Assembly: GCF_001718315.1 (NCBI RefSeq)
Contig: NZ_CP013364.1
Span: 434,001 to 498,000 of the forward strand
Direction of reading: 5' to 3'
From: Burkholderia diffusa
GTDB taxonomy: Bacteria; Pseudomonadota; Gammaproteobacteria; Burkholderiales; Burkholderiaceae
Length of the DNA: 64,000 nt
The position numbers were made by a program, and so were the translations under genes. Below, piece by piece: positions 8,339 to 48,721 of the stretch. Below the pieces are notes generated by a model. It worked only from the letters and a program-made list of their open reading frames with translations, searched no databases and was not told the DNA's origin. The first letter of the stretch is position 1. Each line of letters opens with the position of its first letter.

Positions 8339-8458
8339 GACTGCTGCCAGATGTGGCCGGCCTTAGCCGACCCACAAGCGACTTTCAATTCGTCCGCATA
8401 CCAACGGCCGTTGCCGAAGACAAAGCTGCAGACCCAATGAGAGACGGCCTCGCTAAGG

Positions 8459-16873: not shown

Positions 16874-17302
16874 ATGAGCATGCGCGAGCTGGATCGTCTG
16901 AAGATCGTGGAAGCCGTGATCGAGCAGCGTCTGATGCCTTGGCAAGCCGCGCAGCGGCTCGGAATCAGTCGACGGCAGATTGAACGACTGGTCGCCCGAT
17001 ATCGTGCTGCTGGCCTGGCGGGACTGGTTTCGCAGCGTCGTGGCCACGCAAGCAATCATCAACTTCCCGAGGATCTGGCGCATTGAGCCTTGAGCCTGAT
17101 CCGCGAGCGCTACGCGGATTCTGGGTCGACGCTGGCGTGCGAGAAGCTGCCTGAATGTCATGGCATTGACCTGGCTGTCGAGACGGTTCGTACGCTGATG
17201 AGGGCTTCCGGCCTATGGATTCCACGCAAGCAACGCCCGCCGAAGGTCTACCAACCGCGCAACCGCTGTGCATGCCTGGGCGAACTGATTCAGATCGACG
17301 AT
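16874..17302 (+). pseudogene. truncated ISNCY-family transposase
   Basis: MSMRELDRLKIVEAVIEQRL and the helix-turn-helix AAQRLGISRRQIERLVARYR are typical of the ISNCY transposase with a DDE core. The reading frame is stopped by a TGA at 17084-17086 in the middle of a conserved stretch and resumes as LSLIRERYADSG, LACEKL, VETVRTLMRASGLWIPRKQR and LGELIQID. Homology is lost at about 17300, where the catalytic DDE region should begin. It cannot make a working transposase. Confidence 0.85.
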
Positions 17303-17459
17303 CGAACGCCGTGCAGCGCAGCAAATCCGTTCTCTCGCCCGTGGGACGTGACGCCCAGCCACGGGAGCGCGCGATGGAGGTAGCGTTTGCACGCCGTCCG
17401 GGTCACGCTCACAATAAGCGTTCCGGCGGCTTTCCGCACCGGAACGGATGGAGGGCGAA

Positions 17460-31512: not shown

Positions 31513-31553
31513 CCTCGCAAGGCAAACCGGTTCAAGTCGGGACTGCGGCCGCG

Positions 31554-33023: not shown

Positions 33024-33084
33024 TACGGGATGTCCTTGAGTCGATGCCATGCGCCCGCCAGCGGCCGAAGCCGCGGTGTGCCGA

Positions 33085-34410: not shown

Positions 34411-34412
34411 AT

Positions 34413-35147
34413 TCACTCTCGTTCGGTTGATACGGTGACGTTTTGCACAACGTAGAATTTCGCCACGCGCTCGCTGCTTTCCCATCCGATCGGTGCGCCG
34501 CGCGGCACGAAGAGCGCGTCGCCGGCGCCGAGCGACAGCACGCTGCCGTCGGGCGCGGCGAACCGTACGCTGCCGGCGAGCAGGAGCATGAACTCGTTCA
34601 CGCGATGCGGGCGAACGATTCGGTGATAGGGCGTCGAATCCCACGCGCCCGCGCAGTACCCGGCGCCGTCATCGATGAATACGTTGTCGCTGCGGCATTG
34701 CGGTGCGGCGCCGAGCAGCACTTCGGCCGGGAGCGACGCGGACGGCTTGAAGTCGGCGTCGGCGCGCAGCGCGAACAAGCCGCGCTTCGTCGGTTTCGTG
34801 CATGCAGCCGCGCAGAACATCACGAGCACGCGCGATTCCGCCGCGACGCGAAGCGCCGTGCCGACGCCGATGACCGCCCCCTCCCCCGGCCCCAGCACCA
34901 ACGGAGCGGCGCCCGCCGCTTCCAGCGTCAGCTCGCCTTCGACGACGATGAGGGTCTCGATGTGCGGATAACGCGCGACGTCGAACTCGCCGACGAAACG
35001 GATACGCCCGGCGGCCATCGCGTCGGGCCCTTCCCACGCGATCTCCCGATGTCGGGCGAAAGGATCGCACTCGCCGAATGCCTGCTTGCGAAAGGCGCTT
35101 GGATCAGTCGTGCCGTCGGCACTGTGCAACACGAACACTGCGGTCAT
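34413..35147 (-). CDS. bicupin (DUF861-type) protein
   Basis: 244 residues with two cupin barrels: the first around VARYPHIETLIVVEGELTL, the second with RPHRVNEFMLLLAGSV and GDALFVPRGAPIGWESSE, the typical Cupin_3 ending. The start is taken at 35147 because an upstream start (35189) adds unlike residues. Bicupins of this type include ureidoglycine aminohydrolases and non-enzymatic partners of catabolic oxidases; no specific activity can be read here. It is coupled with the DAO-like gene. Confidence 0.85.
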   Translation of the reverse strand: MTAVFVLHSADGTTDPSAFRKQAFGECDPFARHREIAWEGPDAMAAGRIRFVGEFDVARYPHIETLIVVEGELTLEAAGAAPLVLGPGEGAVIGVGTALRVAAESRVLVMFCAAACTKPTKRGLFALRADADFKPSASLPAEVLLGAAPQCRSDNVFIDDGAGYCAGAWDSTPYHRIVRPHRVNEFMLLLAGSVRFAAPDGSVLSLGAGDALFVPRGAPIGWESSERVAKFYVVQNVTVSTERE

Positions 35148-35238: not shown

Positions 35239-35709
35239 CTACGCAACGTGACACGACGCCTCGCGGCGTTCGGCATGCATGCGCACCGGCGACGTTCGCA
35301 CCGGCGCGTCATCCGGCCGGGCGAGCACGTAATCGCGCGGCGTGATCCCGAGCACCCGCCGAAAATGCCGGCACAGATGGCTCTGATCGAAGAAGCCGAC
35401 CTCGGTCGCGACCACCGACGGCGCCACACCGGCGCGCAGCAAATCCTGCGCACGCCGCACGCGCACGAGACACAAATACCGGTGCGGCGACAAGCCGACT
35501 TCGCCGCGAAAGCGCGCCGTGAAACGCGACACGCTCAATCCGGCCACGGCCGCGAGCGTGTCGAGGTTCAGCGGCTGCGCGAACGATGCGTCGATCGTGC
35601 GCAGCACGTCGCCGATCGCCGACGAGACGGGCTGCGGAACACGCGGAGCGCGCGGCGTCGCGCCTTCAAGCGATTCGTGGAACAGGGTGGCCATGCTCGC
35701 CGTCCTCAT
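35239..35709 (-). CDS. short AraC-family transcriptional regulator
   Basis: 156 residues from 35709, essentially the AraC DNA-binding domain alone: LDTLAAVAGLSVSRFTARFR and APSVVATEVGFFDQSHLCRH, then FRRVLGITPRDYV. No N-terminal sensory domain is present, so it resembles the MarA/SoxS layout with a short lead. It lies between the gamma-glutamylputrescine-oxidase-like gene and the bicupin, in the same direction, and is a candidate regulator of this locus. Confidence 0.9.
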   Translation of the reverse strand: MRTASMATLFHESLEGATPRAPRVPQPVSSAIGDVLRTIDASFAQPLNLDTLAAVAGLSVSRFTARFRGEVGLSPHRYLCLVRVRRAQDLLRAGVAPSVVATEVGFFDQSHLCRHFRRVLGITPRDYVLARPDDAPVRTSPVRMHAERREASCHVA

Positions 35710-35877
35710 GCAATCGCCTTGACGGCAGTGCCTTGTGCGATGAAATGCGCGACCGAGCGCGGCTCGATCCATGCGGCCACTCTCTTACCCACAGCCGCCC
35801 TGGCGCGGCTGGCTTCGTCCAGCGCAAGCGGGCAAATGAATCGTGCGGTCATATCGAATCCTCCCGGGGCAGCCGCT

Positions 35878-37155
35878 TCAGTGCAGGAAATCCTGCATCC
35901 GGTAATACGCGCCGACGAACGGCAGGAACCACGCGTGCCCGAAATGGCCGGGCATCGCCGGCCAGTCGAGCTCGCGCCACGGATTCGATGCGGCCATGCC
36001 GTACAGCACGTCTGCCATCACGCGGCCCATGTGCACGGACATCTGCACGCCATGGCCGCTATAGCCCATCGAGTAGTAAAGCCCGTCGTGCTGGCCTGCG
36101 CGCGGCAGCCTGTCGGCGGTGATGTCGACCAGCCCGCCCCAGCAGTAATCGAGCCGCACGTTCGCCAGTTCCGGGAAATAGCCAGCCATGCCGGCGCGCA
36201 GGATCTCGCCGCTTTTCGCATCGGAGCGCGGGCTCGACATCGCGAAGCGCGCGCGGCCGCCGAACAGCAGCCGGTTGTCGGGCGTCACGCGGAAGTAGTT
36301 GCCGATCTGCCGCGATGTGACGTACGCACGGCGATGCGGGAACAACCGGTTCAGTTGCGCGTCGGGCAACGGCTCGGTGACGACGATGAAACTGCCGACC
36401 GGTGCGATGCGCCGCCGGAACCACGGGAACGGGCCGTGTTGCGACGCACCGGTCGCGACCAGTACGCGATCGGCGACGAGCGTGCCGCGCGTGCAGGTGA
36501 TCACGTGGCGCTCGCCGTCGATCCGCTCGAGCCGCGTGACGGCCGCGTGTTCGTAGATGCGTGCGCCCGCCCGCACGGCCGCCTGCGCGAGGCCGACGCC
36601 GAACTTGCCCATGTGCATCTGCACGCCGTTACGCTGCAACAGCCCGCCGTAAAAGCCGTCCGACGCAATTTCATCGCGGATCCGCGACGGCTCGATCAGT
36701 TCGATGTCCGGATCCACGTCACGCCGCAGCGCGTCGAACGTCTTCGCCAGTCCCGCGAAATGCTGCGGCTTCGCGGCGAGCTTCAGCTTGCCGGCACGGC
36801 GGAAATCGCAGTCGATCGCATGTTCCGCGACGATCGCCTCGACGCTCTTCACCGCGCTTTCGTACGCGCGATAGAACTGCGTTGCAGACTCGGCGCCGAT
36901 CCGCGCGGCCAGCGACGCGTAATCCTGCGCGACGCCCGTGTTGCACTGGCCGCCGTTGCGGCCCGATGCTTCGCCGGCGATCTGCGCGGCTTCGAGCACG
37001 ACGACCGATACGCCGCGCCGCGCCAGCGCGAGCGCCGCCGACAGGCCGGTGAAACCGCCGCCGATCACGGCCACGTCGGCGCGACCTTCGACGGGCCCTT
37101 CGCAACCTGCACGAAACGCGGGACGCGTATCCAGCCAGTACGATTCGAATTTCAT
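35878..37155 (-). CDS. FAD-dependent oxidoreductase, gamma-glutamylputrescine-oxidase-like
   Basis: The start at 37155 (MKFESYWLDTRPAF, with AAGGATCCG before it) matches the PuuB/OrdL family; an ATG at 37212 is the alternative. The 425-residue protein has the FAD fold ADVAVIGGGFTGLSAALALA, the motif GEASGRNGGQCNTG used for FAD attachment or positioning in this family, and the C-terminal GLYYSMGYSGHGVQMSVHMG. PuuB oxidises gamma-glutamylputrescine to an aldehyde, hydrogen peroxide and ammonia. No glutamylputrescine synthetase is near, so another secondary amine or amino acid may be the substrate. The upstream element at 37210-37310 is shared with three other promoters. Confidence 0.88.
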   Translation of the reverse strand: MKFESYWLDTRPAFRAGCEGPVEGRADVAVIGGGFTGLSAALALARRGVSVVVLEAAQIAGEASGRNGGQCNTGVAQDYASLAARIGAESATQFYRAYESAVKSVEAIVAEHAIDCDFRRAGKLKLAAKPQHFAGLAKTFDALRRDVDPDIELIEPSRIRDEIASDGFYGGLLQRNGVQMHMGKFGVGLAQAAVRAGARIYEHAAVTRLERIDGERHVITCTRGTLVADRVLVATGASQHGPFPWFRRRIAPVGSFIVVTEPLPDAQLNRLFPHRRAYVTSRQIGNYFRVTPDNRLLFGGRARFAMSSPRSDAKSGEILRAGMAGYFPELANVRLDYCWGGLVDITADRLPRAGQHDGLYYSMGYSGHGVQMSVHMGRVMADVLYGMAASNPWRELDWPAMPGHFGHAWFLPFVGAYYRMQDFLH

Positions 37156-37209
37156 CGGATCCTTCTCGAGCATTCCGTCGACAGCGATCGGCGATCGCCC
37201 GTTGAAAGC

Positions 37210-37310
37210 CATTTAATCACCGTCAAAAAGCGCGGTTGCCGCGTATTCGCGCGCGGTACACGCACGATTCACCGTTTTGCACGACCGTCGCAGCACACTA
37301 TGCGGCAACG
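37210..37310 (-). promoter_or_regulatory. shared upstream element, copy 1 (flavin oxidoreductase)
   Basis: On the + strand this reads CATTTAATCACCG at 37210, CACGATTCACCGTTTTG at 37263-37279 and CGCAGCA at 37289-37295. The same blocks, in the same order and spacing, occur at 42940-43040 and more loosely at 44374-44474 and 46608-46712 (reversed). Its position between the ABC ATPase stop and the oxidoreductase start marks a separate promoter. Confidence 0.65.
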
Positions 37311-37355
37311 CTGCTCGCCGCACCGGCGACCGCGACGGACGAACGATTCGGCATG

Positions 37356-39227
37356 CTACTGACGCACCGGCTGCGCCGTTGCGACGCCCTTCGCCGGCTC
37401 GGCCTGGAAGCGCGCGAGATCCGCCTCGCTGCGATGACACAACACCTGCGCGCCATTCTCGAGCGTGCGCAGCGCGGGCGCGGTCCGGTTGCACACGCCG
37501 TCCACCCGCATCGCGCAGCGCGACAGGAACGGGCACAGCTCGGCGTCGTCGGCGCTCGCGCCGATCGGCACGAGCGGCCGGTGGCAGCGTTCGGCCGCAT
37601 CGTCGAGCCAGCCCGCGCGCAATTCCGGCGCGGACGACACGAGCAGATGCGAATACGGGTGATAAGGCGGCGCGCACAGCGCGTCGCGGCTGCCCGTTTC
37701 AACGCGGCGGCCCGCGTACAGCACGACGATGTCGTCGCTGATCGCGCGCACTTTCGCGATGTCGTGCGTGATGAACACGTACGACACGCCGAGCTTCGCC
37801 TGCAGGTCGCGCAGCAAGTCCATGATCGCGGCGCCGACCACGGTGTCGAGTGCCGACGTGACCTCGTCGCACAGGATCAGGTCGGGCTCGGCCGCGAGCG
37901 CACGCGCGAGGTTCACCCGCTGCTTCTGCCCGCCGGACAGCTCGCCGGTGCGCCGCGCGGCCACCGCCTGCGGCAGCCGCACGAGATCGAGCAGCTCGGC
38001 GACACGCTGCCGCGCACGCGCGCCCTTGATCCCGTGATAGAACGCAAGCGGCCGTGCGAGCGTGCGCTCGACGGTATGCACCGGGTTGAGCGCGGTATCG
38101 GCGTTCTGGAACACGATCTGCACGCGACGGTGCTGCTCCTTGGTGCGCTTGGCTATGTCGAGCGCGAGCGGCTCGCCGTCGAGCAGAATCCGACCGGCCG
38201 TCGCCGGCACGAGACCCGCGATCACCTTCGCGAGCGTCGTCTTGCCCGAGCCCGATTCGCCGATCACGCCAACCGTCTGCCCGCGCCCGATGCGCAGGTC
38301 CACTTCGTGCAGGATCACCTTCGCGGGCCAGCCTTTCGCGGTCCGGCCGCCGTAGCCGGCGACCGCGCCGCGCACGTCGAGCAGCGGCGCCGGCGCGGCG
38401 CTCGCCGCTTTCGCATCGCGTTCGGCATCGGTCGGCGTCACCGCTGCGATCAGGCTTTGCGTGTACGGATGCGTCGGCGCATGCAGGATCTGTTCGGTAT
38501 CGCCTGCTTCGCGGATCACGCCGTCGCTCAGCACGACGATCCGGTCGGCCATCTGCGCGACCACGGCCAGGTCGTGCGATACGTAGACGGCGCTCATCCC
38601 GTAGCGCCGGATCACGCTCTTGAAGGCCTGCAGCACGTCGATCTGCGTAGTCACGTCGAGCGCGGTGGTCGGCTCGTCGAGAATCACCAGCTCCGGATCG
38701 GTGATCAGCGCCATCGCGGCCATCAGCCGCTGCAGCTGACCGCCCGACACCTGATGCGGATAGCGTTTGCCGATCGTCTCGGGTTCGGGCAGCGCGAGCG
38801 CGCGGAACAGCTCGACCGCCTTCGCCTGCGCGTCGCGCTTCGACAGCGTCTTGTGGATCAGCGCGCTCTCGATCACCTGATCGAGAATCGTGCGCGACGG
38901 GTTGAACGCGGCGGCCGCGCTCTGCGCGATGTATGCGACCTTGCGGCCGCGCAGCGCGGCCAGTGCCGGCGCGGGCAACGTGCAGACATCCGTGCCGCCG
39001 AGCTTCACCGAACCGCCGGCGATCCGGCAGCCGGCACGCGCATGGCCCATCAGCGACAGCGCGATCGTCGTCTTGCCGGAGCCCGATTCGCCGATCAGCG
39101 CGAGCACCTCGCCTCGCCCGATATCGAAGTCGACGCCGTGAACGATCGTCGTTTCCTCGCCGCCCGGCCGGCCGCCGACCACGCGCAGCCCGCGCACCTC
39201 GACGAGCGGAGTCGAATCGTGTCGCAT
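37356..39227 (-). CDS. ABC transporter ATP-binding protein with two ATPase domains (peptide/opine type)
   Basis: 623 residues. Each half has a Walker A GESGSGKTT, a signature (HQVSGGQLQRL in the first, GELSGGQKQRV in the second) and a Walker B (ELVILDEPTTALD, DLILCDEVTSALD). The C-terminal CPFLSRCAMRVDGVCN is the oligopeptide-ABC extension with its Cys. It is a natural DppD-DppF fusion, as in YejF/GsiA-type systems. Its ATG overlaps the permease stop codon as TGATG, so it is co-translated. It powers import of the substrate bound by the 41250-42833 product. Confidence 0.95.
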   Translation of the reverse strand: MRHDSTPLVEVRGLRVVGGRPGGEETTIVHGVDFDIGRGEVLALIGESGSGKTTIALSLMGHARAGCRIAGGSVKLGGTDVCTLPAPALAALRGRKVAYIAQSAAAAFNPSRTILDQVIESALIHKTLSKRDAQAKAVELFRALALPEPETIGKRYPHQVSGGQLQRLMAAMALITDPELVILDEPTTALDVTTQIDVLQAFKSVIRRYGMSAVYVSHDLAVVAQMADRIVVLSDGVIREAGDTEQILHAPTHPYTQSLIAAVTPTDAERDAKAASAAPAPLLDVRGAVAGYGGRTAKGWPAKVILHEVDLRIGRGQTVGVIGESGSGKTTLAKVIAGLVPATAGRILLDGEPLALDIAKRTKEQHRRVQIVFQNADTALNPVHTVERTLARPLAFYHGIKGARARQRVAELLDLVRLPQAVAARRTGELSGGQKQRVNLARALAAEPDLILCDEVTSALDTVVGAAIMDLLRDLQAKLGVSYVFITHDIAKVRAISDDIVVLYAGRRVETGSRDALCAPPYHPYSHLLVSSAPELRAGWLDDAAERCHRPLVPIGASADDAELCPFLSRCAMRVDGVCNRTAPALRTLENGAQVLCHRSEADLARFQAEPAKGVATAQPVRQ

Positions 39228-40195
39228 CAGTGTTCTCCGGCGGCGACGGCCGCACCCTTGCGGCGGCCGCGATGCGGCAGTCCGTCGATCAACAGGTTGA
39301 CGCCCACCGTCAGGATCGCGATCGCGACCGCGGGCATGATCGCGACGGCCGAGCCGTCGCCGAGGCTCGCGATGTTCTCGCGCACGAGCGAGCCGAGGTC
39401 CGCGTACGGCGGCTGCACGCCGAGCCCGAGAAAGCTCAGGCCGCTCAGCAGCAGCACGACGAACGTGAAGCGCAGCCCGGTATCGGCGAGCATCGGGTGG
39501 ATCATGTTCGGCAGCATCTCGACGCACGCGATGTACAGCGCGCTTTCGCCGCGCGCACGTGCAACCTGCACGAATTCGAGCGTGCTGATGTTGACGGCCA
39601 GCGCGCGCGCGATCCGGTACGAGCCGGGCATGTAGCTGACCGCCGCGGTCAGGACCAGGAGCGGCAGCGACGAGCCGAACGCGGCGACGAACATCAACGC
39701 GAACATCTTCGACGGAATCGACGTGAGCGCATCGAGCAGCCGGCTCATCGTCTCGTCGACCGCGCGGCCCGACACGGTCGCGAGCAGCCCGAGCGTCGTG
39801 CCGGTCAGCGCGGCAAGCAGCACCGCCGCGAGCGCGAGCAGCACGGTCAGGCGCGTGCCGTACAGGATCCGGCTCAGCATGTCGCGGCCGAGGAAGTCGG
39901 AGCCGAACGGCAGCTTCGCGCTGAACGGCGCGAACACGTCCGGCGTGACGATCGCGCCGACGTCGTGCGGCGCGAGCAGCGGCGCGAACGCCGCGATGAA
40001 CAGCATCAGCGCGACCATCGACAGGCCGACACGGCCGCCGGTCGTCAGTGCCATGCGCGCGGCGCGGCGCTTGGGCGGCTGGTCGGGTGCGGGTGCGGCG
40101 GGCGGCGTCGCGCCGCTCCACGGCGGAGGCTGATCGCCGGACGGCGGCAGCGCGCTGCTGCGTTGAACGGGTTCGGTCGGGTGCATGGGCGGCAT
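39227..40195 (-). CDS. ABC transporter permease, DppC/OppC type
   Basis: 322 residues with a Pro-rich cytoplasmic lead (about 1-45), one helix and the BPD_transp_1 domain (about 110-310). The family segment FGSDFLGRDMLSRILYG and the EAA loop with ARALAVNISTLEFVQVARAR are present. It forms the heterodimeric inner-membrane channel with the 40217-41170 permease and ends overlapping the ATPase gene. Confidence 0.93.
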   Translation of the reverse strand: MPPMHPTEPVQRSSALPPSGDQPPPWSGATPPAAPAPDQPPKRRAARMALTTGGRVGLSMVALMLFIAAFAPLLAPHDVGAIVTPDVFAPFSAKLPFGSDFLGRDMLSRILYGTRLTVLLALAAVLLAALTGTTLGLLATVSGRAVDETMSRLLDALTSIPSKMFALMFVAAFGSSLPLLVLTAAVSYMPGSYRIARALAVNISTLEFVQVARARGESALYIACVEMLPNMIHPMLADTGLRFTFVVLLLSGLSFLGLGVQPPYADLGSLVRENIASLGDGSAVAIMPAVAIAILTVGVNLLIDGLPHRGRRKGAAVAAGEH

Positions 40196-40216
40196 CTCGG
40201 AAGGAGGACGGAACGC

Positions 40217-41170
40217 TCAGGTCCGCAGTCTCGGGTTCGACACGATCGAGCACAGGTCGGCGAACAGCACGAGCGTCAGGTAGGCGACGCAGAAGATCAG
40301 CGTGCACGCCTGGACCAACGGGAAATCGCGGTTGCCGACGGCATCGACCATCAGGCTCGCGAGGCCTGGATAGTTGAAGATCGTCTCGACGACGATCACG
40401 CCGCCGAGCAGATACGACAGGCTCAACGCGATCGCGTTGGCAATCGGGCCGATCGCGTTCGGCAGCGCGTGGCGCAGCACGACACGCGCGGGGCTCGCGC
40501 CCTTGAGCACGGCCATCTCGACATACGACGCGCTCAGTTGCTCGATCACCGCGGCGCGCGTCATCCGTGCCATCTGCGCGATCACGACCGCGCACAGCGT
40601 CAGCACCGGCATCGCGTACGCCCGCAGGAAATCGTGCAGGCTTTCGATCGGGCCGCTGTACGACAGCGCGGACAGCCAGTGCAGCTTCACGGCCAGCACG
40701 AGCACGGCGACCGTCGCGATCAGGAATTCAGGCGTCGCGACGAGCGACAGCGTCCCGAGGCTGATCATGCGATCGACCACCGACTCGCGCTTGACCGCCG
40801 CGAGGATCCCGAGCAGCAGCGCGATCGGCACCGACACGGCGGTCGTGATCGCCGCAAGCGCGAGCGATTTCGGCAGGCGCCCGCCGATCATCTCCGACAC
40901 CGGCATGTCGCCCGACAGCGAGCGGCCGAAATCGCCGTGCAGCAGCCCCGCGAGCCAGTGCAGGTAGCGCACGTGGGCCGGCATGTCGAGGCCGAACTGC
41001 TGACGCAGCGCGGCGACCGTCTCCGGGGTCGCGGACTGGCCGAGCGCGGCCTGCGCGGCGTCGCCCGGCAGCAGGTTCGTGATCGTGAAGATGATCGCGG
41101 ACACGATCAGCAGCGTCAGCGCGGTGACCGCAATGCGCCGGCCGATCAGCCCGAGCAGGATTCGATTCAT
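40217..41170 (-). CDS. ABC transporter permease, DppB/OppB type
   Basis: 317 residues. The N-terminal RRIAVTALTLLIVSAIIFTI helix is followed by LPGDAAQAALGQSATPETVA, the periplasmic loop of DppB proteins, and a six-helix permease domain with the EAA-type loop EMAVLKGASPARVVLRHALP. Partner of the DppC-type permease 21 bases downstream. Confidence 0.93.
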   Translation of the reverse strand: MNRILLGLIGRRIAVTALTLLIVSAIIFTITNLLPGDAAQAALGQSATPETVAALRQQFGLDMPAHVRYLHWLAGLLHGDFGRSLSGDMPVSEMIGGRLPKSLALAAITTAVSVPIALLLGILAAVKRESVVDRMISLGTLSLVATPEFLIATVAVLVLAVKLHWLSALSYSGPIESLHDFLRAYAMPVLTLCAVVIAQMARMTRAAVIEQLSASYVEMAVLKGASPARVVLRHALPNAIGPIANAIALSLSYLLGGVIVVETIFNYPGLASLMVDAVGNRDFPLVQACTLIFCVAYLTLVLFADLCSIVSNPRLRT

Positions 41171-41249
41171 GAAGCGGCACTCCGGAAAAGGTCGCGCGCG
41201 GCCGGTGCAGTCGCCCGCACCGGCCGCGCGGCGGCGGCATGCACCGGGC

Positions 41250-42833
41250 TCAGGCGTTCCACCACACGTGCTCGGCGAACATGAAGCCCATCATTCCACC
41301 GGTCGGGATCGAACCGAGGCCCGCGAGCCGCTTGTCGTAGCCGTCGAGGAAGCTGATGAAGGCCGGAATGCCGACCCGGCACTGCTGCGCGACGAGCACC
41401 TGCATGTCGCCGTACATCTGCTTGCGCTTCGCGTCGTCGGTTTCCGAACGCGCGGCGAGCAGCAACTGGTCGAACTTCGCGTTCTTCCAGCCCGATTCGT
41501 TCCACGGCGCATCGGACTTGAAGAACTGCGTGAACACCACGTCGGCGCTCGAGCGCGGGTTGATGTTGCCGAAGCCGAGCGGATGCTTCATCCAGTGGTT
41601 CGACCAGTAGCCGTCGGGCGATACGCGGTTCACCTGCAGGTTCAGCCCGATCTTCTGGCCGGCCTGCTGCAGCAGCACGGCCATTTCGATCGACCCGTTC
41701 GCGTCGGACGTCGCATAGATCGGCGGCAGCGTGACGCCCAGCGCGCCCGCCTTCTGGAACAGGAACTTCGCCTTGTCCGGATCGTGCGGCCGCTGCGGCA
41801 GCGACGCGTTGAAATAGCGATGCCCCGGCGGGATCGGCTGGTCGTTGCCGATCACCGCGTAGCCGCGAAACACCGCCGAGCGGATCTGCTCGCGATCGAA
41901 CAGGTACTTCATCCCTTCGACGAAATCCGGATTCGCGGTGATCGGGTTGTCGCTACGCACGATCAGATCGGTATAGAGCCCCGACTTGGTTTCCTGCAAC
42001 GCATAGCCCGGCGTCGACGCCACCCGCTGCGTCGAGCGCGGATCGATCGCGTTGATCAGGTGCACGTCGCCCGACAGCAGCGCGTTCAGGCGCGCGGCGC
42101 TGTCGCTGATGCCGATCAGCTCGATCTCGTCGAGGTACGGCATCCCCGGCTTGAAGTAGCTGTCGTTTCGCACGCCGACGGTCGACACGCCCGGCTTGAA
42201 CGACTTCAGCTTGTACGGGCCGCAACCGATGCCGGTGCTGAAGTCGGTCGTGCCGTCCTTGACGATCACGAGCTGCGGCGTCGCGAGGATCACCGGCAGG
42301 TCGGCGTTCGCGCTGACGAGCGTGAGCGTGACCTCGTCCGGGCCGCTCGCCTTCGCATCGGCGAACTGATCGGCGAGCGGCTTGACCTTCGACGCGGTGG
42401 CCGCGTTCTTGTGGCGCATCAGCGAGAACACCACATCGGCCGGCCCGACCGGCTTCCCGTCGTGGAACGTGACGCCCTTGCGCAGCTTGATGATCCACGT
42501 CTTCGCGTCGGTCGTCTGCAACGACTGGGCGAGGTTCATCTGCGGCGTCAGGCTCGCATCGAGCTGCGTGAGGCCGCTATAGAACATGAAGAAACGAATG
42601 TAGTCGGCGCCCGTCGAGCCCTTGGCGGGGTCGAGCGTATCGGCCGTCGAACTCGATTCGTTCGCGACACGGATCTTGCCGCCGCGCTTCGGTGCCGGCG
42701 CGGCGAACGCGGACTGCGCGTCCATCAGCAGCCCGCCGCCGCCGACGGCCATCATGCCGCTCGCCGCCATGACCCGCATCATGTCGCGGCGCGTGAAGCC
42801 GCCCTTGCCGCCGTTGTCGATATCGTCGCTCAT
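41250..42833 (-). CDS. ABC transporter periplasmic substrate-binding protein (SBP_bac_5)
   Basis: 527 residues with a Tat-type leader (FTRRDMMRVMAASGMMAVGG, then AQSAFAAPAP). The family-5 motifs are clear: AKTWIIKLRKGVTFHDGKPV, ADVVFSLMRHKN and FNASLPQRPHDPDKAKFLFQ. These proteins bind peptides, opines, nickel or amine conjugates. Export folded by Tat is a little unusual for this family but common in Burkholderia homologues. The start at 42833 is the first after the conserved upstream element at 42940-43040. Confidence 0.93.
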   Translation of the reverse strand: MSDDIDNGGKGGFTRRDMMRVMAASGMMAVGGGGLLMDAQSAFAAPAPKRGGKIRVANESSSTADTLDPAKGSTGADYIRFFMFYSGLTQLDASLTPQMNLAQSLQTTDAKTWIIKLRKGVTFHDGKPVGPADVVFSLMRHKNAATASKVKPLADQFADAKASGPDEVTLTLVSANADLPVILATPQLVIVKDGTTDFSTGIGCGPYKLKSFKPGVSTVGVRNDSYFKPGMPYLDEIELIGISDSAARLNALLSGDVHLINAIDPRSTQRVASTPGYALQETKSGLYTDLIVRSDNPITANPDFVEGMKYLFDREQIRSAVFRGYAVIGNDQPIPPGHRYFNASLPQRPHDPDKAKFLFQKAGALGVTLPPIYATSDANGSIEMAVLLQQAGQKIGLNLQVNRVSPDGYWSNHWMKHPLGFGNINPRSSADVVFTQFFKSDAPWNESGWKNAKFDQLLLAARSETDDAKRKQMYGDMQVLVAQQCRVGIPAFISFLDGYDKRLAGLGSIPTGGMMGFMFAEHVWWNA

Positions 42834-43647
42834 CCGAACTGCTCCTGACTGTGGAAAGTGGGTCCTGGGGTCCAGCGTGGTTCGAGAAACCCGTCGCGGC
42901 CGCGTGCTGGTAGCGGGCGCGACGTCATGCGCATTGAGTTCATTTAAGCATCGCCAAAATGCGGGTTGTCGCGATTCGGGGCGGCTGCACCACACGATTC
43001 GACCGTTTTGGGCCACCTGCGCAGCATGATTTGCTGCGTGAGCGCACCTGCCGGCGTTTGCGCGATGCGATGCCGCGACGGTCGGGGTAACGGTGGCACG
43101 GCGACGGAAGTGATCAAGCGACGCACGCGGCGAATTGCGCCGACAACACTGCCGGCTCGGCATCGCTAACGCCTTCGGCCCGCGCAGGCAGCGTGCTCCT
43201 GTCGAACCGACGGCCGTGCGATCTCGCGGCGCCTTCCAGTGCCTCCGCACGAAAATTCAGATGATTGCGTTGTGCTTTCGAACCGACCTGCCGCCGCACC
43301 GGTGCACGGCGCCGCGCCATGCGAACGCCGAGACGCCCCGCGCGATCCGGTCTACGGCGCGTTCTGGATCGGCGTATGCAAATTCATGCCGGGTATTTGC
43401 CGGCGCAACGTGACAGAGTCGGAGACGACGCAGCCTTCGTGTGCGGCGCGCATGGATTTGCCGGGGATGGTGAAGGCGCCGGCCAGGTCGGCGCGGGCGC
43501 GACGCGTTGCTGCGCCGCGCATGCCGGCGAGCGTGACGAGGGATGACACGCGCGGCGCACGTGTCGATGCGATCTTGCAGCGCTGCCGGCATGCCGCGTG
43601 CGGCGGTGATCCCCAACGTCGCGGCACGCCGGCAACGCGCCGCGCGC
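42834..43647. other. 814-base intergenic region upstream of the ABC operon
   Basis: It contains the conserved element (42940-43040) close to the binding-protein gene. The remaining ~600 bases hold no recognisable gene; frames on either strand are Arg-rich chance openings. Confidence 0.45.
42940..43040 (-). promoter_or_regulatory. shared upstream element, copy 2, with perfect dyad (ABC operon)
   Basis: The + strand reads CATTTAAGCATCG at 42941, CACGATTCGACCGTTTTG at 42993-43010, then the perfect dyad CGCAGCA-TGATT-TGCTGCG at 43020-43038. Blocks one and two match copy 1 with few changes across about 95 bases. The dyad is the clearest candidate for the regulator's binding site. Confidence 0.7.
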
Positions 43648-44316
43648 TTACAGGCCGAGCTGCGTCGCGAGATGGCCGATGTCCGACACTTCGTAATAGT
43701 TGTAGAACGGCGTACCGGGCTCGTGGCCGCGATTGACGAACGCCTTGTGCCTGATCCCGAGATCCTCGGCCGTCATCAGGTCGTAGCGCAGGCTCGACGA
43801 CACGTGCAGCACGTCCTCCGGCTTGCAGCCGAGCTGGCCGAACATGTATTCGAAGCCCTGCATGCGCGGCTTGTACGACTGCGCCTGCTGCGCGGTGAAC
43901 ACCGCATGAAACGGCGCGCCGAGCTTGTCGACGTTGCTCATGATCTGGTCGTCCGACGCGTTCGACAGGATCACGAGCTTGTACTTCGTGGCGAGCCGCG
44001 AGAGCCCGGCCGGCACGTCCGGATGCGGCCCCCACGTCGGCACCGCCTGATAGAAGCGCTCCGCCTCCGCCTCGTCGAACTTCACGCCGACCCGCGCGCA
44101 GGTGCGCCGGATCGCGTTGACGACGACGTCGCGGTACGGCTTCCACGCCCCGAGCACCTCGTCGAGCCGATACGCGGCGAACGCGCGCACGAATTCCTCC
44201 ATCGCGACCGCCGACAACCGGTCCGCGTAGATCTCGCGCGCCAGTTCCGCCATCCGGAAGCGGGTCAGCGTGCCGTAGCAGTCGAACGTGATGAACTTCG
44301 GTTCAAATTGGATCAT
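43648..44316 (-). CDS. HAD-superfamily hydrolase, haloacid dehalogenase type II-like
   Basis: 222 residues with the nucleophile motif FITFDCYGTL (Asp12), SNASDDQIMS as motif II, and SYKPRMQGFEYMFGQL with Lys as motif III, ending SSSLRYDLMTAEDLGI. It matches the L-2-haloacid dehalogenase branch of the HAD family. Actual activity could be dehalogenation of 2-haloacids or a phosphatase-like step in the surrounding pathway. It is transcribed leftward, away from the GNAT gene, from a promoter carrying copy 3 of the shared element. Confidence 0.88.
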   Translation of the reverse strand: MIQFEPKFITFDCYGTLTRFRMAELAREIYADRLSAVAMEEFVRAFAAYRLDEVLGAWKPYRDVVVNAIRRTCARVGVKFDEAEAERFYQAVPTWGPHPDVPAGLSRLATKYKLVILSNASDDQIMSNVDKLGAPFHAVFTAQQAQSYKPRMQGFEYMFGQLGCKPEDVLHVSSSLRYDLMTAEDLGIRHKAFVNRGHEPGTPFYNYYEVSDIGHLATQLGL

Positions 44317-44373
44317 GGTTGGGTCCTGTCGGTGTGAAACCCCGGCAGGGCCGGGGACGGGCTGGGTTCAACG

Positions 44374-44474
44374 AAATTGAATCAGGGCAAAAAATCCGTC
44401 GCACATCGTTCGACGCCGTTCGAAACGCAGATTCGCCGCGTGTTGCACGCCCCGGGCAGCACGATCTGCGGCGC
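44374..44474 (-). promoter_or_regulatory. shared upstream element, copy 3 (HAD gene)
   Basis: The + strand has AAATTGAATCAGGGC at 44375, GATTCGCCGCGTGTTGCACG at 44430-44449 and GCAGCA-CGATC-TGCGGC at 44456-44472. Order and spacing match copies 1 and 2; TTGCACG is shared with copies 1 and 4. Confidence 0.55.
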
Positions 44475-44591
44475 GGTCGCCAGCGGCGGCGCGAGCCGGC
44501 CGGCCGGCGGACTTCACGCAACCGCGGCGCGGTAACCGCCCGGCACGGTTCGCCTGCGCGCGGCAGCGCCGCCGCGTTTTTATCGTAGTGT

Positions 44592-44619
44592 CATTCCCAC
44601 AGCAGAAGCTGTCGGAATG
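44592..44619. promoter_or_regulatory. imperfect palindrome upstream of the GNAT gene
   Basis: Arms CATTCCCACAGC and GCTGTCGGAATG are complementary except for one pair, with AGAA between. A related half-site, TGTCATTCCTAC, recurs at about 44759-44770 close to the GNAT start. An operator is likely; the regulator is unknown. Confidence 0.45.
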
Positions 44620-44786
44620 GCCGGGCGCGCCGGCATGATGCGCGCGTTCGTGCGCGCCGATCGACCCGGTTTGCGTCGATCTCGCACGACCGTCCGCCGA
44701 CGCCGGAAAACAGGCGAATCGTCCTATCCGCGCCGCAGCGGCACTGGCAGAGTCGATATGTCATTCCTACCCATCCGGAGTCCGGC

Positions 44787-45647
44787 GTGGCCGACCTCAA
44801 TTCTTCCAGCACGCTTACCTATCGGCCGTTCGCCGAAACCGACCTGCCCGCCGCGCACCGACTGTCGGAGGCAGTCAAGTGGCCGCACCGGCTCGACGAC
44901 TGGCGCTTCGCATTCCAGCTCGGCAGCGGCTTCGTCGCCGAGGACGAATCCGGCGTCGTCGGCACCGCGCTCGGCTGGCGCTTCGGCGAATCGCATGCAT
45001 CGCTCGGCATGGTGATCGTGTCGCCCGAGCGCCAGGGCCGCGGCATCGGCCGCGAACTGCTCGCGCGCGTCGTCGACAGTCTCGGCGCGCGCACGATCTT
45101 CCTGCATGCGACACCGTCCGGCGAGCCGCTCTACGTGAAATTCGGCTTCGAGGCGATCGGCACGATCGACCAGCACCAGGGCGCCGCATTCCAGCCGCCG
45201 CTGATCTCGCTGCCGCCCGGCGAGCGCCTGCGCCCGCTCGGCACCAACGACGGGCCGCGCCTCGCCGCGCTCGCATCGCGCGCATCGGGCTACCCGCGCG
45301 ACACGGTGATCGATGCGCTGCTCGACGTCGCCAACGGGATCGCACTCGATCGCGACGGCGAGTTGCTCGGCTTCGCGCTGTTCCGCCGTTTCGGCCGCGG
45401 CCACGTGATCGGCCCGGTGATCGCGCCCGACGCGCTGCGCGCGCAGGCGCTGATCAGTCACTGGCTCGCGCTGCACGAGGGCATGTTCGTGCGCCTCGAC
45501 GTGCCGGGCGACAGCGGGCTGTCGGACTGGCTGCAGGGGCTCGGGCTGCCGCGCGTCGATACTGTCGTCGCGATGGCGCGCGGCGCGGCGCTCGCCCGCG
45601 ATCCGGCGTTGCGCGCGTTCGCGATCGTCAACCAGGCGCTCGGCTGA
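44787..45647 (+). CDS. GNAT-family N-acetyltransferase
   Basis: 286 residues from a GTG at 44787. The N-terminal acetyl-CoA fold (about 10-130) has the pyrophosphate loop SPERQGRGIGRELLARVV and LYVKFGF, the late GNAT strand. The second half (about 145-280) is a weaker GNAT-like repeat (LGFALFRRFGRGHVIGPVIA). The substrate is an unidentified amine. It starts the rightward arm of the locus, only 10 bases before the GhrA-like gene. Confidence 0.88.
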   Translation: MADLNSSSTLTYRPFAETDLPAAHRLSEAVKWPHRLDDWRFAFQLGSGFVAEDESGVVGTALGWRFGESHASLGMVIVSPERQGRGIGRELLARVVDSLGARTIFLHATPSGEPLYVKFGFEAIGTIDQHQGAAFQPPLISLPPGERLRPLGTNDGPRLAALASRASGYPRDTVIDALLDVANGIALDRDGELLGFALFRRFGRGHVIGPVIAPDALRAQALISHWLALHEGMFVRLDVPGDSGLSDWLQGLGLPRVDTVVAMARGAALARDPALRAFAIVNQALG

Positions 45648-45657
45648 GCGGCGCGCA

Positions 45658-46584
45658 ATGAGTTTCCTCTACAAGGCCGACCCGGTGCGCGGCGCGCAAT
45701 GGGCGCAGCGCTTCGCGCAACAGGCGCCCGACCTCGCGTTCCGGATCTGGCCGGACCTCGGCGATCCGGAGGCCGTGCGCTATCTCGCCGCGTGGCAGCC
45801 GCCCGACGATCCGTGCGCGCTGCTGCCGAACCTGGAGATCGTGTTCTCCGTCGGCGCCGGCATCGATCAATTCGACCTGTCGCGCGTGCCCGCGCACATC
45901 CCGGTCGTGCGGATGATCGAACCGGGCATCGTCGACGGGATGATCGAATACGTGACGCAGGCCGTGCTGACGATCCATCGCGACCTGTTCGACTACGCGG
46001 CGCAGCAGCGCGAGCACGTGTGGCGCGAGAAACCGGTGCGCGCGGCCGCGTCGCGACGCGTCGGCGTGCTGGGGCTTGGCACCCTCGGGCAGGCCGTGCT
46101 CGACACGCTGCGGCGCTTCGGTTTCCCGTGCGCCGGCTGGAGCCGTACGCCGCGCACGCTCGACGGCATCGACTGCCATGCGGGCGACGCCGCACTCGAT
46201 ACGTTCCTTGCTCGCACCGACATCCTGATCTGCCTGCTGCCGCTCACCGACGATACGCGCGGCCTGCTCGGCGCGCGCGTGTTCGACGCGCTGCCGGCGG
46301 GCGCATCGCTCGTGCAGGTCGGGCGCGGCCCGCAGCTCGACGCGACCGCGCTGCTCGCCGCGCTCGACAGCGGCCGCCTCGACAGCGCGATCCTCGACGT
46401 GACGGATCCGGAGCCGTTGCCGGCCGGCCACCCGTTCTGGACGCATCCGCGCATTCGCATCACGCCGCACATCGCCAGCGCGACGCGACCCGACACCGCG
46501 GTCGACGCCGTGCTCGCGAACCTCGCGCGCCATCGCGCGGGGCAACCGATGATCGGCGTCGTCGATCGCGCACGCGGCTACTGA
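45658..46584 (+). CDS. glyoxylate/hydroxypyruvate reductase A-like D-2-hydroxyacid dehydrogenase
   Basis: 308 residues with the NAD(P) fold RRVGVLGLGTLGQAVLDTLR at about 134, PLTDDTRGLLG, VQVGRGPQLD and the catalytic His in the ITPHIASAT motif near the C-terminus. The first 20 residues and SVGAGIDQFD place it in the GhrA branch. It would reduce 2-oxoacids such as glyoxylate or hydroxypyruvate, a plausible fate for the keto acid made by the nearby aminotransferase. It follows the GNAT gene by 10 bases, probably in the same transcript. Confidence 0.9.
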   Translation: MSFLYKADPVRGAQWAQRFAQQAPDLAFRIWPDLGDPEAVRYLAAWQPPDDPCALLPNLEIVFSVGAGIDQFDLSRVPAHIPVVRMIEPGIVDGMIEYVTQAVLTIHRDLFDYAAQQREHVWREKPVRAAASRRVGVLGLGTLGQAVLDTLRRFGFPCAGWSRTPRTLDGIDCHAGDAALDTFLARTDILICLLPLTDDTRGLLGARVFDALPAGASLVQVGRGPQLDATALLAALDSGRLDSAILDVTDPEPLPAGHPFWTHPRIRITPHIASATRPDTAVDAVLANLARHRAGQPMIGVVDRARGY

Positions 46585-46607
46585 CGCGCTCGCCCGGCCT
46601 GGCGGAG

Positions 46608-46712
46608 CACGCAGCAGAAAATGCCGAAGCGCCCCGTGCAAACACTGCTTCCGTACGTTTCAGCGCGCAAATTGAAGGCGCGTGCGGATTTCTCGCCCGG
46701 TAGCATGACCTC
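46608..46712 (+). promoter_or_regulatory. shared upstream element, copy 4 (omega-aminotransferase)
   Basis: In the gene's direction it opens CACGCAGCAGAAAATGCC at 46608, has CGTGCAAACAC at 46635 and ends GGATTTCTCGCCC near 46690. Reversed, its ends match copy 2 (TGCTGCGTG) and copy 3 (GAAATCCG, TTGCACG). It is the most diverged of the four and the only one on the + strand. Confidence 0.5.
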
Positions 46713-46744
46713 ACGCTGACACCCGACGAGAGTCCCGCACTGCC

Positions 46745-48145
46745 ATGAACCAAGCCACGCTGATCGAAGCCGATCGTCAACATCTGATCCACCCTGTCGT
46801 CAACTATCGTGCGCACGAGGCGCGCGGCGTCACCGTGCTTGAATCCGCAGAAGGCGTGTTCCTGCGCGACGCCGACGGCCACACGCTGCTCGATGCGTTC
46901 TCGGGCCTGTGGTGCGTGAACGTAGGCTACGGCCGCGACAGCATCGTGAAGGCCGCCACCGAGCAAATGGCGAAGCTGCCCTACGCGACCGGCTATTTCC
47001 ATTTCGGCTCGCAACCCGCGATCGAGCTGGCCGAACGGCTCGCGGCGCTCGCCCCGCCGTCGTTGAACCGCGTGTACTTCACGCTCGGCGGCTCGGATGC
47101 GATCGACTCCGCCGTGCGTTTCATCACGCACTATTTCAACGCGACCGGACGCCCGACGAAAAAGCACATGATCGCGCTCGAGCGCGGCTATCACGGCTCG
47201 TCGTCGATCGGCGCCGGCCTCACCGCGCTGCCCGCGTTCCACCGTCACTTCGATCTGCCGCGCGCGGACCAGCACCACATTCCGTCACCCTACCCGTATC
47301 GCCACCCGCTCGGCGACGATCCGCAGGCGCTGATCGCCGCGTCGGTCGCCGCGCTCGAAGCGAAGGTTGCCGAACTCGGCGCGGACAACGTCGCGGCCTT
47401 CTTCTGCGAGCCCGTGCAGGGTTCCGGCGGCGTGATCGTGCCGCCGGCCGGCTGGCTGAAGGCGATGCGCGACGCGTGCCGGCGCCTCGGCATCCTGTTC
47501 GTCGCCGACGAGGTGATCACCGGCTTCGGCCGCACGGGCCCGCTGTTCGCGTGCGAGACCGAGCAGGTCGACCCGGACCTGATGACGGTCGCGAAAGGGC
47601 TGACCGCCGGCTATGCGCCGATGGGCGCGGTGCTGATGTCCGACGAAATCTACGAAGGGATTGCGGGCAGCCGCGCGGAATCGGCCGCGGTCGGCCACGG
47701 CCATACATATTCCGCGCATCCGGTCAGCGCGGCGATCGGCCTCGAAGTGCTGAAGCTCTATCACGAAGGCGGGCTGCTCGCGAACGGCCGGGCGATGGCG
47801 CCGCGTTTCGCCGCCGGGCTCGATGCGCTGCGCGCGCATCCGCTCGTCGGCGACGCGCGTTCAACCGGCCTGCTCGGCGCACTCGAACTGGTCGCCGACA
47901 AGACGCGCAAGACGCGCTTCGATCCTGCGCTCAACGTGCCCGACCGGGTTGCCGCCGCCGCGTATGCGAACGGCGTGGTGTTTCGCGCATTCGGCGATGG
48001 CGTGCTCGGCTTCGCGCCGGCGCTGAGCTTCACCGCGGGCGAATTCGACCTGATGTTCGAGCGCGTGCGCAAGACGCTCGACGATGTGCTGGCCGACGCG
48101 GGCGTGCAGCGCGCACTCGACACCGCACACGCGCAACCAGCCTGA
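46745..48145 (+). CDS. class III omega-aminotransferase
   Basis: 466 residues. The PLP-enzyme motifs of fold-type I class III are all present: DAFSGLWCVNVGYGR, YHGSSSIGAGLT, FCEPVQGSGGVIVPP, FVADEVITGFGRTG with the PLP Asp, and the Schiff-base Lys in MTVAKGLTAGYAPMG. These enzymes move the terminal amino group of beta-alanine, GABA, putrescine, taurine or aryl amines to pyruvate or 2-oxoglutarate. The downstream succinate-semialdehyde dehydrogenase makes a GABA-like or diamine substrate attractive. The gene lies directly before an Lrp-type regulator. Confidence 0.93.
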   Translation: MNQATLIEADRQHLIHPVVNYRAHEARGVTVLESAEGVFLRDADGHTLLDAFSGLWCVNVGYGRDSIVKAATEQMAKLPYATGYFHFGSQPAIELAERLAALAPPSLNRVYFTLGGSDAIDSAVRFITHYFNATGRPTKKHMIALERGYHGSSSIGAGLTALPAFHRHFDLPRADQHHIPSPYPYRHPLGDDPQALIAASVAALEAKVAELGADNVAAFFCEPVQGSGGVIVPPAGWLKAMRDACRRLGILFVADEVITGFGRTGPLFACETEQVDPDLMTVAKGLTAGYAPMGAVLMSDEIYEGIAGSRAESAAVGHGHTYSAHPVSAAIGLEVLKLYHEGGLLANGRAMAPRFAAGLDALRAHPLVGDARSTGLLGALELVADKTRKTRFDPALNVPDRVAAAAYANGVVFRAFGDGVLGFAPALSFTAGEFDLMFERVRKTLDDVLADAGVQRALDTAHAQPA

Positions 48146-48229
48146 CCGGCCAAGGGAAAGCCGGGCTTGTGGCGATAATCGTTCGACTCTAAAGTAACCG
48201 GACATTCCATTTTTTCCTCTCACGTGAAC

Positions 48230-48721
48230 ATGACGGACAGCAAGCTGGATCGCATCGACCTGCGCATCCTCTCCCAGTTGCAAAAGCGCGGCCGCATGAC
48301 CAACGTCGAACTGGCCGATGCGGTCGGGCTGTCGCCCAGTCCTTGCCTGATCCGCGTGAAGCGGCTCGAGAAGGCCGGCTATATCGGCGGATACGGCGCG
48401 CACATCCAGCTCGAGAAACTGGGCGACGTACAGGTCGTGTTTACCGAGGTCACGCTCGCCGACCACCGGCGCGAGGACTTCGACCGTTTCGTCGCGGCGA
48501 TCCGCAACGTCGACGAGATCGTCGAATGCCACCTCGCGAGCGGCGGCTACGACTATCTGCTCAAGTTCATCACGCGCAGCGTGAGCCATTACCAGACGAT
48601 CGTCGAAGGGCTGCTCGAGCAGAACATCGGCATCGAGAAATATTTCAGCTACGTCATCATCAAGTCGCCGTTCGTCAAACGGCATTACCCGCTCGAATCG
48701 CTGTTCGGCGAACGTCACTGA
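48230..48721 (+). CDS. Lrp/AsnC-family transcriptional regulator
   Basis: 163 residues from the ATG at 48230; a GTG at 48224 is the alternative. The N-terminal helix-turn-helix (KLDRIDLRILSQLQKRGRMT, NVELADAVGLSPSPCLIRVK) is followed by the RAM ligand-binding domain (VDEIVECHLASGGYDYLLKF). Lrp-type proteins bind dyads as octamers and respond to amino acids. Its place between the aminotransferase and dehydrogenase genes makes it a strong candidate for the regulator of the shared promoter element. Confidence 0.92.
   Translation: MTDSKLDRIDLRILSQLQKRGRMTNVELADAVGLSPSPCLIRVKRLEKAGYIGGYGAHIQLEKLGDVQVVFTEVTLADHRREDFDRFVAAIRNVDEIVECHLASGGYDYLLKFITRSVSHYQTIVEGLLEQNIGIEKYFSYVIIKSPFVKRHYPLESLFGERH

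Follow-up and report, generated by a model that had tools for sequence, protein, structure and literature searches.

Genes and promoter segments of the locus

We analysed a 64-kb stretch of Burkholderia diffusa DNA (64,000 nucleotides, hereafter the window). On its minus strand it encodes an AraC-type DNA-binding-domain protein (35239..35772), a DAO-type FAD oxidoreductase (35878..37155, Pfam PF01266), downstream of which the AraC-type gene lies, an Opp/Nik-type ABC transporter operon with ATPases, two permeases and a substrate-binding protein (SBP; 37356..42833), and a HAD type II hydrolase (43648..44316) that scored above the cut-off of TIGR01428. The likely start of the oxidoreductase gene, at 37155, is based on a ribosome-binding-like AAGGA and on ortholog matches from residue 1. 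On the plus strand, a class III aminotransferase gene (AT; 46745..48145; PF00202, and NF004625 above its cut-off) is followed by the gene of an Lrp/AsnC-family regulator (48224..48721, starting at 48224 or 48230), whose product matched PF13412, PF13404 and PF01037 above the cut-offs, that is, an AsnC-type helix-turn-helix and an AsnC ligand-binding domain.

Related segments lie upstream of the oxidoreductase gene (copy 1, 37204..37309, minus strand), the ABC-transporter operon (copy 2, 42936..43042, minus), the hydrolase gene (copy 3, 44369..44474, minus) and the aminotransferase–Lrp gene pair (copy 4, 46605..46712, plus). Sequence comparison shows the four, each 106-108 bp long, to be homologous copies of one promoter module, shared by four neighbouring catabolic transcription units. 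Gene duplication was rejected as the source of the likeness, the downstream genes being members of unrelated families.

Each module consists, in order, of a distal palindrome with a GCA-N5-TGC core (block A), a CAAAACG block, a variable part and a -10 hexamer, and the distance from the palindrome core to the hexamer is 87, 87, 88 and 87 bp in copies 1 to 4. The invariant columns lie mainly at the distal palindrome and the -10 end in alignment A1, whose 51 rows comprise 12 orthologs per unit (out of 35-42) and three paralogous sites. Block A, a 15-bp palindrome of the Lrp type, reads CCGCATAGTGTGCTG in copy 1 (37291..37305, minus), CAGCAAATCATGCTG in copy 2 (43022..43036, minus), CCGCAGATCGTGCTG in copy 3 (44457..44471, minus) and CAGCAGAAAATGCCG in copy 4 (46612..46626, plus). 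Alignment A1 also placed extended -10 elements in copies 1 (TGATTAAAT, 37211..37219, minus), 2 (TGCTTAAAT, 42942..42950, minus) and 3 (TGATTCAAT, 44376..44384, minus), and the -10 hexamer TAGCAT in copy 4 (46701..46706, plus). The 'CATTTAA/AATTGAA' block of the preliminary description is the extended -10 of copies 1-3, but its register was wrong for copy 4, where the element is TAGCAT and not AATTGAA. A distal block, described there as 'GCAGCA', is present as well, but it is the palindrome.

Similarity and conservation of the four copies

We then assessed the four-way similarity. With copy 1 as the query against single window sequences, copies 2 and 3 scored 40 and 23, both above the best of 18,014 other window segments (17). 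Copies 2 and 3 scored 18 against each other, a value reached by 0.12-0.14% of window segments, and copy 4 as a single sequence was not significant against any other copy, since 3-27% of segments scored as high. In the comparison of ortholog profiles, FAD–SBP (65.4), HAD–AT (37.4) and FAD–HAD (35.7) were well above the controls, and copy 4 is linked to the others via copy 3 (HAD–AT column-shuffle null, 14.6 +/- 1.8); the AT profile reached no more than the null level against FAD (17.0) or SBP (15.9). Because the reversed and reverse-complement controls of ten profile pairs reached up to 24.4, exceeding most shuffles, the SBP–HAD score of 26.8 was barely above the controls. Leave-one-out HMM searches of the window returned each omitted copy as the top untrained match, with E-values of 1.4e-12, 1.5e-11 and 4.3e-5 for copies 1, 2 and 3, and of only 0.021 for copy 4. 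By both the profile and the leave-one-out tests, the aminotransferase copy is the most weakly linked of the four. The four segments were correctly positioned in the preliminary description, and their similarity is real by the window, profile and leave-one-out tests. Random window segments, shuffled profiles and related species, which had been proposed as grounds for refutation, did not refute it in silico, but copy 4 became convincing only with ortholog profiles.

When the 6.86-Mb genome was scanned with model R1, four sites were found, all at this locus (E 4.1e-22, 3.8e-20, 1.1e-18 and 9.5e-17 for copies 1 to 4), and the next best match had an E-value of 0.009. Since the model includes the window sequences, the strength of these four matches arises by construction, and the leave-one-out searches serve as the control. 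The scans scored part of the first-look candidates, namely 150 in this genome, 60 per genome in the genus and 15 per genome in the family. A GNAT promoter was also considered as a fifth copy and rejected: it has only AAAACAGGCGAATCGT (44707-44722) in common with the module, and it gave no match in the model scan of the 6.86-Mb genome. Its profile scores against FAD (20.0) and SBP (23.1) slightly exceeded their largest shuffles, those against HAD (20.1) and AT (21.2) fell below theirs, and all four lay within the range of the reversed controls (maximum 24.4).

Within the genus, copies 1 to 4 are conserved in 35, 40, 42 and 42 loci, counting the window and excluding loci L071-L074; copy 2 is kept only in part in one locus (L036). 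Strong module matches were found in 43 of the 44 genus genomes with the HAD gene and in none of the 21 without it. The module thus follows the HAD gene, and its four genomic sites all lie at this locus, in agreement with the earlier proposal that unrelated genes here form one local regulon. The HAD, Lrp and AraC genes occur in the identical 44 of 65 genus genomes, so co-occurrence at this level cannot separate Lrp from AraC.

Across the family, where all genome counts, as elsewhere, cover mutually related sequences, clear matches (E ≤ 1e-5) occurred in 69 of 249 genomes and in 7 of 25 genera, with the modules of other genera upstream of the same genes; an Lrp ortholog was present in all 69 genomes, and an AraC ortholog in 67. 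At E ≤ 1e-3, matches extended to 87 genomes and 10 of the 25 genera, and the seven of these genomes without an Lrp ortholog are probably noise. Conversely, and counting against a link to Lrp, 15 of 95 Lrp-positive genomes had no module at E ≤ 1e-3. The Lrp protein is 72-77% identical in 13 of the 15; of the other two, G223 (82%) gave no module match, and in G128 (91%) the matches are weak (E 0.002-0.005), with two lying upstream of the HAD and aminotransferase genes. Six Lrp paralogs of 61-64% identity, taken as a further check on this link, had no module nearby (best E 0.014).

The distal palindrome and the Lrp/AsnC-family regulator

We compared block A with the 15-bp Lrp consensus YAGHAWATTWTDCTR, as printed in PMC5554404. 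Copies 1 to 4 agree with it at 12, 14, 11 and 11 of the 15 positions, so that all four target promoters carry such a palindromic site; the window background has a mean of 4.95 matches, and at least 11 occur at 0.08% of positions. Block A was also the best-matching offset over 138 elements anchored on the GCA-N5-TGC core. Since 20 of these elements had been chosen by eye for palindromes and the other 118 anchored on GCA-N5-TG, the selection itself inflates both the count of 135/138 and the block A z of 6.5. We therefore give more weight to loci selected by the Lrp protein and not by the element, namely the best 80 of 418 loci, 76 of them with a testable aminotransferase gene. The core GCA-N5-TGC lies within 220 nt before this gene in 75 of the 76 (16 of the first 17, which are Burkholderia records, and 59/59 of the remainder), whereas 14.4% of the 2598 windows used as controls have it; with a phased AAAA added, it was found in 58/76 versus 0.19%. 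This test is less biased, yet the 76 loci are interrelated and some Burkholderia genomes were already in the model. The selected loci place the regulator in Burkholderia, Paraburkholderia, Caballeronia, Pandoraea and Trinickia. Among them is locus L275 of Paraburkholderia xenovorans LB400, which has the palindrome in its aminotransferase promoter.

The regulator gene is linked to its presumed targets. It follows the aminotransferase gene, also in genome G020, where the locus is split and the aminotransferase–Lrp pair lies elsewhere with its own module, and in loci L195 and L074 modules adjoin divergent Lrp genes. Because of its place behind the aminotransferase gene, the Lrp gene is probably under the control of copy 4. 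From these sequence comparisons we consider it likely that the four segments are compound promoter modules of the local Lrp/AsnC-family regulator encoded at 48224-48721, which is probably autoregulated. Forming a symmetric oligomer that is probably octameric, the protein would bind the distal palindrome; with the first base of the -10 hexamer taken as -12, the centre of this palindrome lies some 94 bp before the transcription start. The protein may make further contacts at the CAAAACG block and beyond, and would bend or wrap the DNA toward an extended -10 promoter without a good -35. The upstream position of the sites and the poor -35 make activation likelier than repression. A small amine or amino acid could in this way jointly switch the transporter, oxidoreductase, hydrolase and aminotransferase. 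The AraC-type gene, downstream of copy 1, may form a second tier.

A more specific version, which we put forward only tentatively, is that a single Lrp-type octamer wraps the DNA from about -100 to -10 into a rigid nucleoprotein promoter of 106 bp, and that this wrapped promoter was copied whole from gene to gene. If so, an Lrp regulon would have arisen as promoters were transferred repeatedly inside a single catabolic island, and the AraC-type domain protein would be a second tier encoded by the regulon. Some 27 bp inward of block A there is a second dyad, which is weak (z 2.6, falling to 2.0 when longer arms are used) and variable in the position of its centre; its distance from block A shows no clear equality with the BarR, AsnC or E. 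coli Lrp spacings in PMC10201364. Read as a local Lrp-type regulon, the locus offers a candidate operator for an Lrp-type regulator of a catabolic pathway, along with its full set of four targets, and suggests which island genes work jointly. Because palindrome core and hexamer keep a distance of 87-88 bp in all four promoters, the idea that Lrp-family proteins act by wrapping DNA can be tested directly here.

Alternative regulators and known Lrp-family systems

The preliminary description had named both the Lrp and the AraC proteins as candidate regulators; Lrp is favoured by the palindrome, the Lrp-selected loci and a few cases without AraC. If the AraC-type protein were the main regulator, which we regard as unlikely, it would act as a class II activator on direct repeats in the inner half by the -10, and the palindrome would be secondary. 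In AraC/XylS class II promoters, direct-repeat half sites lie about 21 bp apart and overlap the -35. In the inner half of copies 1-3, [CT]GAATC-like direct repeats ([CT]GAAT/[CT]GAAC) lie 22-23 bp apart, with 31-33 bp from the start of the inner repeat to the -10 hexamer. They could suit such an activator, and an AraC ortholog is present in 67 of the 69 family genomes with clear modules. However, no such repeats were found in copy 4, and most of the invariant columns lie in the distal palindrome and at the -10 end. Genome G169 carries the full module, including the inner half, before the transporter gene and lacks an AraC ortholog (best match 60 bits, in a 300-aa frame), and in G073, G245, G109 and G230, where no AraC match rises above paralog level, the outer half is retained before the aminotransferase gene. 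Furthermore, identity in most other genera is 43-67% for AraC orthologs, versus 81-91% for Lrp in the same genera, and at the cut-offs applied AraC is missing from 19/95 family genomes with Lrp, and Lrp from 0/76 with AraC. The 19 are an overcount: G113 and G273 at the least, and probably G277 and G078, have diverged AraC genes near Lrp that score below the cut-off. Since a module also stands directly upstream of the AraC gene in G031 and G033, the AraC-type protein belongs to the regulon, and it may have a part in co-regulation.

Somewhat less probable still is a different reader of the module, unlinked to the locus, with Lrp no more than a bystander. The association with Lrp rests on linkage, presence and consensus, which leaves room for such a factor, but the module tracks the locus with the HAD gene throughout the genus and block A fits the Lrp consensus. 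The copies might also be remnants of promoter duplication that no longer share a regulator, in line with their homology along the whole length; their separate conservation in 35-42 genus loci and their position before the same genes in other genera make this very improbable. A structured RNA leader or riboswitch, suggested by a long conserved stretch upstream of genes, can practically be dismissed, as 36500-47500 gave no Rfam match at the gathering score and the module, ending in a -10-like hexamer, would not be transcribed from its own start.

Among the titles and abstract beginnings of an open-access subset of the literature, no paper on the locus or motif stood out, and we compared the proposed Lrp-type control with three known systems. 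According to PMC8707732, PA2577 of Pseudomonas aeruginosa is likewise a local Lrp/AsnC regulator of a neighbouring gene, but it represses one divergent transporter gene, and its broad ChIP-seq peaks allowed no specific motif to be identified. BarR, from Sulfolobales, is also an Lrp-family protein coupled to an aminotransferase gene, which it regulates; as described in PMC10201364, it is an octamer, has several semipalindromic sites of 15 bp within a single intergenic region, and wraps DNA as seen by atomic force microscopy. In contrast to this archaeal system of one divergent gene pair, where spacers between the 15-bp sites are 15-17 and 27-29 bp (as the same text gives, 15-17 or 27-29 bp, for BarR, AsnC and E. 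coli Lrp), one module here precedes four bacterial transcription units and ends in a -10, and a second site is uncertain. Finally, E. coli Lrp (PDB 2gqq) is the closest solved sequence to the regulator (E 6e-32), and block A fits its consensus as printed in PMC5554404. The regulator scored 140.3 bits against the E. coli Lrp group (NCBIfam NF008370), below the cut-off of 233, and, unlike E. coli Lrp, which is a global regulator, it would serve the four sites found in the genome scan.

Related promoter modules in the catabolic locus

The preliminary description had placed a shared element upstream of four transcription units, and its coordinates hold to within a few bases. Copy 1 (37204..37309, minus strand) precedes a DAO-type FAD oxidoreductase gene (FAD), copy 2 (42936..43042, minus) an Opp/Nik-type ABC operon (SBP), copy 3 (44369..44474, minus) a HAD type II hydrolase gene (HAD), and copy 4 (46605..46712, plus) a class III aminotransferase gene (AT) followed by the Lrp/AsnC gene (48224..48721, plus). 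The checked gene map bears out the claim that these genes belong to unrelated families. As for the claimed likeness of all four segments, copies 1, 2 and 3 are indeed related when compared as single sequences, whereas copy 4 showed no significant likeness to the others in such a comparison and was connected to them through the HAD and AT ortholog profiles.

The HAD protein was detected in 44 of the 65 genomes of the genus, and 45 genus loci, each at most 14.4 kb long, served for ortholog comparison. A strongly conserved stretch was found upstream of the FAD, SBP, HAD and AT units in 35, 40, 42 and 42 loci, respectively (the window counted). Profile-to-profile alignment, with 60 column shuffles as the null, gave scores of 65.4 for FAD-SBP (null 14.7 ± 2.3), 35.7 for FAD-HAD (13.6 ± 1.4), 26.8 for SBP-HAD (14.7 ± 1.9) and 37.4 for HAD-AT (14.6 ± 1.8), while reversed and reverse-complement profile controls reached 24.4, above most shuffles; the FAD-AT and SBP-AT alignments were not significant. 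In leave-one-out models, every omitted copy was the best untrained match in the 64 kb, yet copy 4 only at E 0.021. The relatedness of the copies is firmer from the genus orthologs than from the single sequences.

Architecture of the module

Full-length modules run from block A, a distal 15-bp palindrome with the core GCA-N5-TGC, through a CAAAACG-like block beginning 23-24 bp after the start of this core, a variable middle and a T-rich stretch, to a terminal TG-N-TTAAAT or related -10. In copies 1-3 the variable middle contains [CT]GAAT/[CT]GAAC repeats spaced at 22-23 bp. For window copies 1 to 4 the distance from core to -10 hexamer is 87, 87, 88 and 87 bp, and the leader between the -10 and the start codon varies, by coordinates, from 38 to 108 bases. 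No good -35 was found in the modules at 16-18 bp spacing. The module has the appearance of a promoter whose internal geometry is fixed. In other genera, many aminotransferase promoters match the model in the outer half only.

In a second copy of the locus in one genome (G112, L227; Lrp 82% identity), CAAAAC is replaced by TATAAA in both promoters seen, which may reflect co-variation of site and regulator. Separately, AAAACAGGCGAATCGT at 44707-44722, before a divergent GNAT gene (44787-45647), is nearly invariant across 42 loci; it is similar to the module's inner part but lacks block A.

Distribution across genome, genus and family

A sequence-only covariance model built from 51 elements recovered four sites in the genome that carries the window, with E values between 4.1e-22 and 9.5e-17; the next-best site had E 0.009. 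Among the genus genomes, 43 gave matches of E 2e-17 or better, all within the 44 carrying the HAD gene; the remaining one (G050) had a best match of only E 0.004. The 21 genomes lacking the HAD gene gave no match that passed E 0.001. The four strong sites, and genus matches that track the HAD gene, uphold the single local regulon proposed earlier. The family scan gave matches in 87 of 249 genomes and 10 of 25 genera at E<=1e-3, some probably noise, and in 69 of 249 genomes and seven genera at E<=1e-5. Homology, fixed geometry, conservation, linkage and consensus match of the module are established at the level of sequence comparison, and the four copies appear to constitute a real regulon. The module would outline a catabolic regulon common to several genera.

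Candidate regulators and a proposed mechanism

Block A agrees with the Lrp consensus (PMC5554404) at 11-14 of 15 positions, and an Lrp ortholog occurs in 69/69 family genomes with the module at E<=1e-5. Among loci selected solely by the Lrp protein (80 fetched, the best 80 of 418), the core precedes the aminotransferase gene in 75 of the 76 testable, versus 14.4% of control windows. Where the locus is split (G020, G035), the module remains upstream of the Lrp gene, preceding the aminotransferase-Lrp pair in G020 and standing, by coordinates, ~1.6 kb from Lrp in G035; in L195 and L074, modules adjoin divergent Lrp genes. A full module occurs without an AraC ortholog in one genome (G169), and in four others that have no clear one the aminotransferase gene is still preceded by the module's outer half. 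In G031 and G033 the module lies directly upstream of the AraC gene, so AraC is likely a regulon target.

Counting against the Lrp reading, AraC is nearly always present as well, with an ortholog in 67 of the same 69 genomes at a cut-off that overlooks diverged copies. Moreover, a recognisable module is missing in 15 of 95 Lrp-positive family genomes, no module was found at six Lrp paralogs of 61-64% identity, and the second dyad is weak, its distance fitting no published spacing cleanly.

Under the Lrp reading, an Lrp-type oligomer would bind block A and further sites and bend or wrap the promoter, controlling the extended -10; copy 4 could mediate Lrp autoregulation, and the effector may be an amine or amino acid. 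The nearest precedent is BarR (PMC10201364), an octameric Lrp-type protein acting on an aminotransferase gene via several 15-bp sites; another local Lrp/AsnC regulator is described in PMC8707732. The rigidity of the module makes the wrapping model amenable to testing.

The AraC-type ORF (35239-35772, minus strand) encodes 177 aa and matches DNA-binding domains only; the open frames around the orthologs are between 151 and 591 aa long. Beside it, 30316-34644 (minus strand) encodes an amidohydrolase, an aldehyde dehydrogenase and a second FAD oxidase, which probably belong to the same catabolic island as the module genes. The G031 locus (L208) carries extra modules, one at 17271-17364 directly upstream of the AraC gene and one at 8429-8527 upstream of a displaced FAD oxidoreductase gene. 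In three loci, a second HAD gene is divergent from an Lrp paralog (65-70%): inspection of L223 (8478-8822) by eye showed no more than the palindrome core with a -10-like hexamer, while a weak match (E 4e-4) lies between the two genes in L224 (8606-8704) and a module in L074 (9666-9770).
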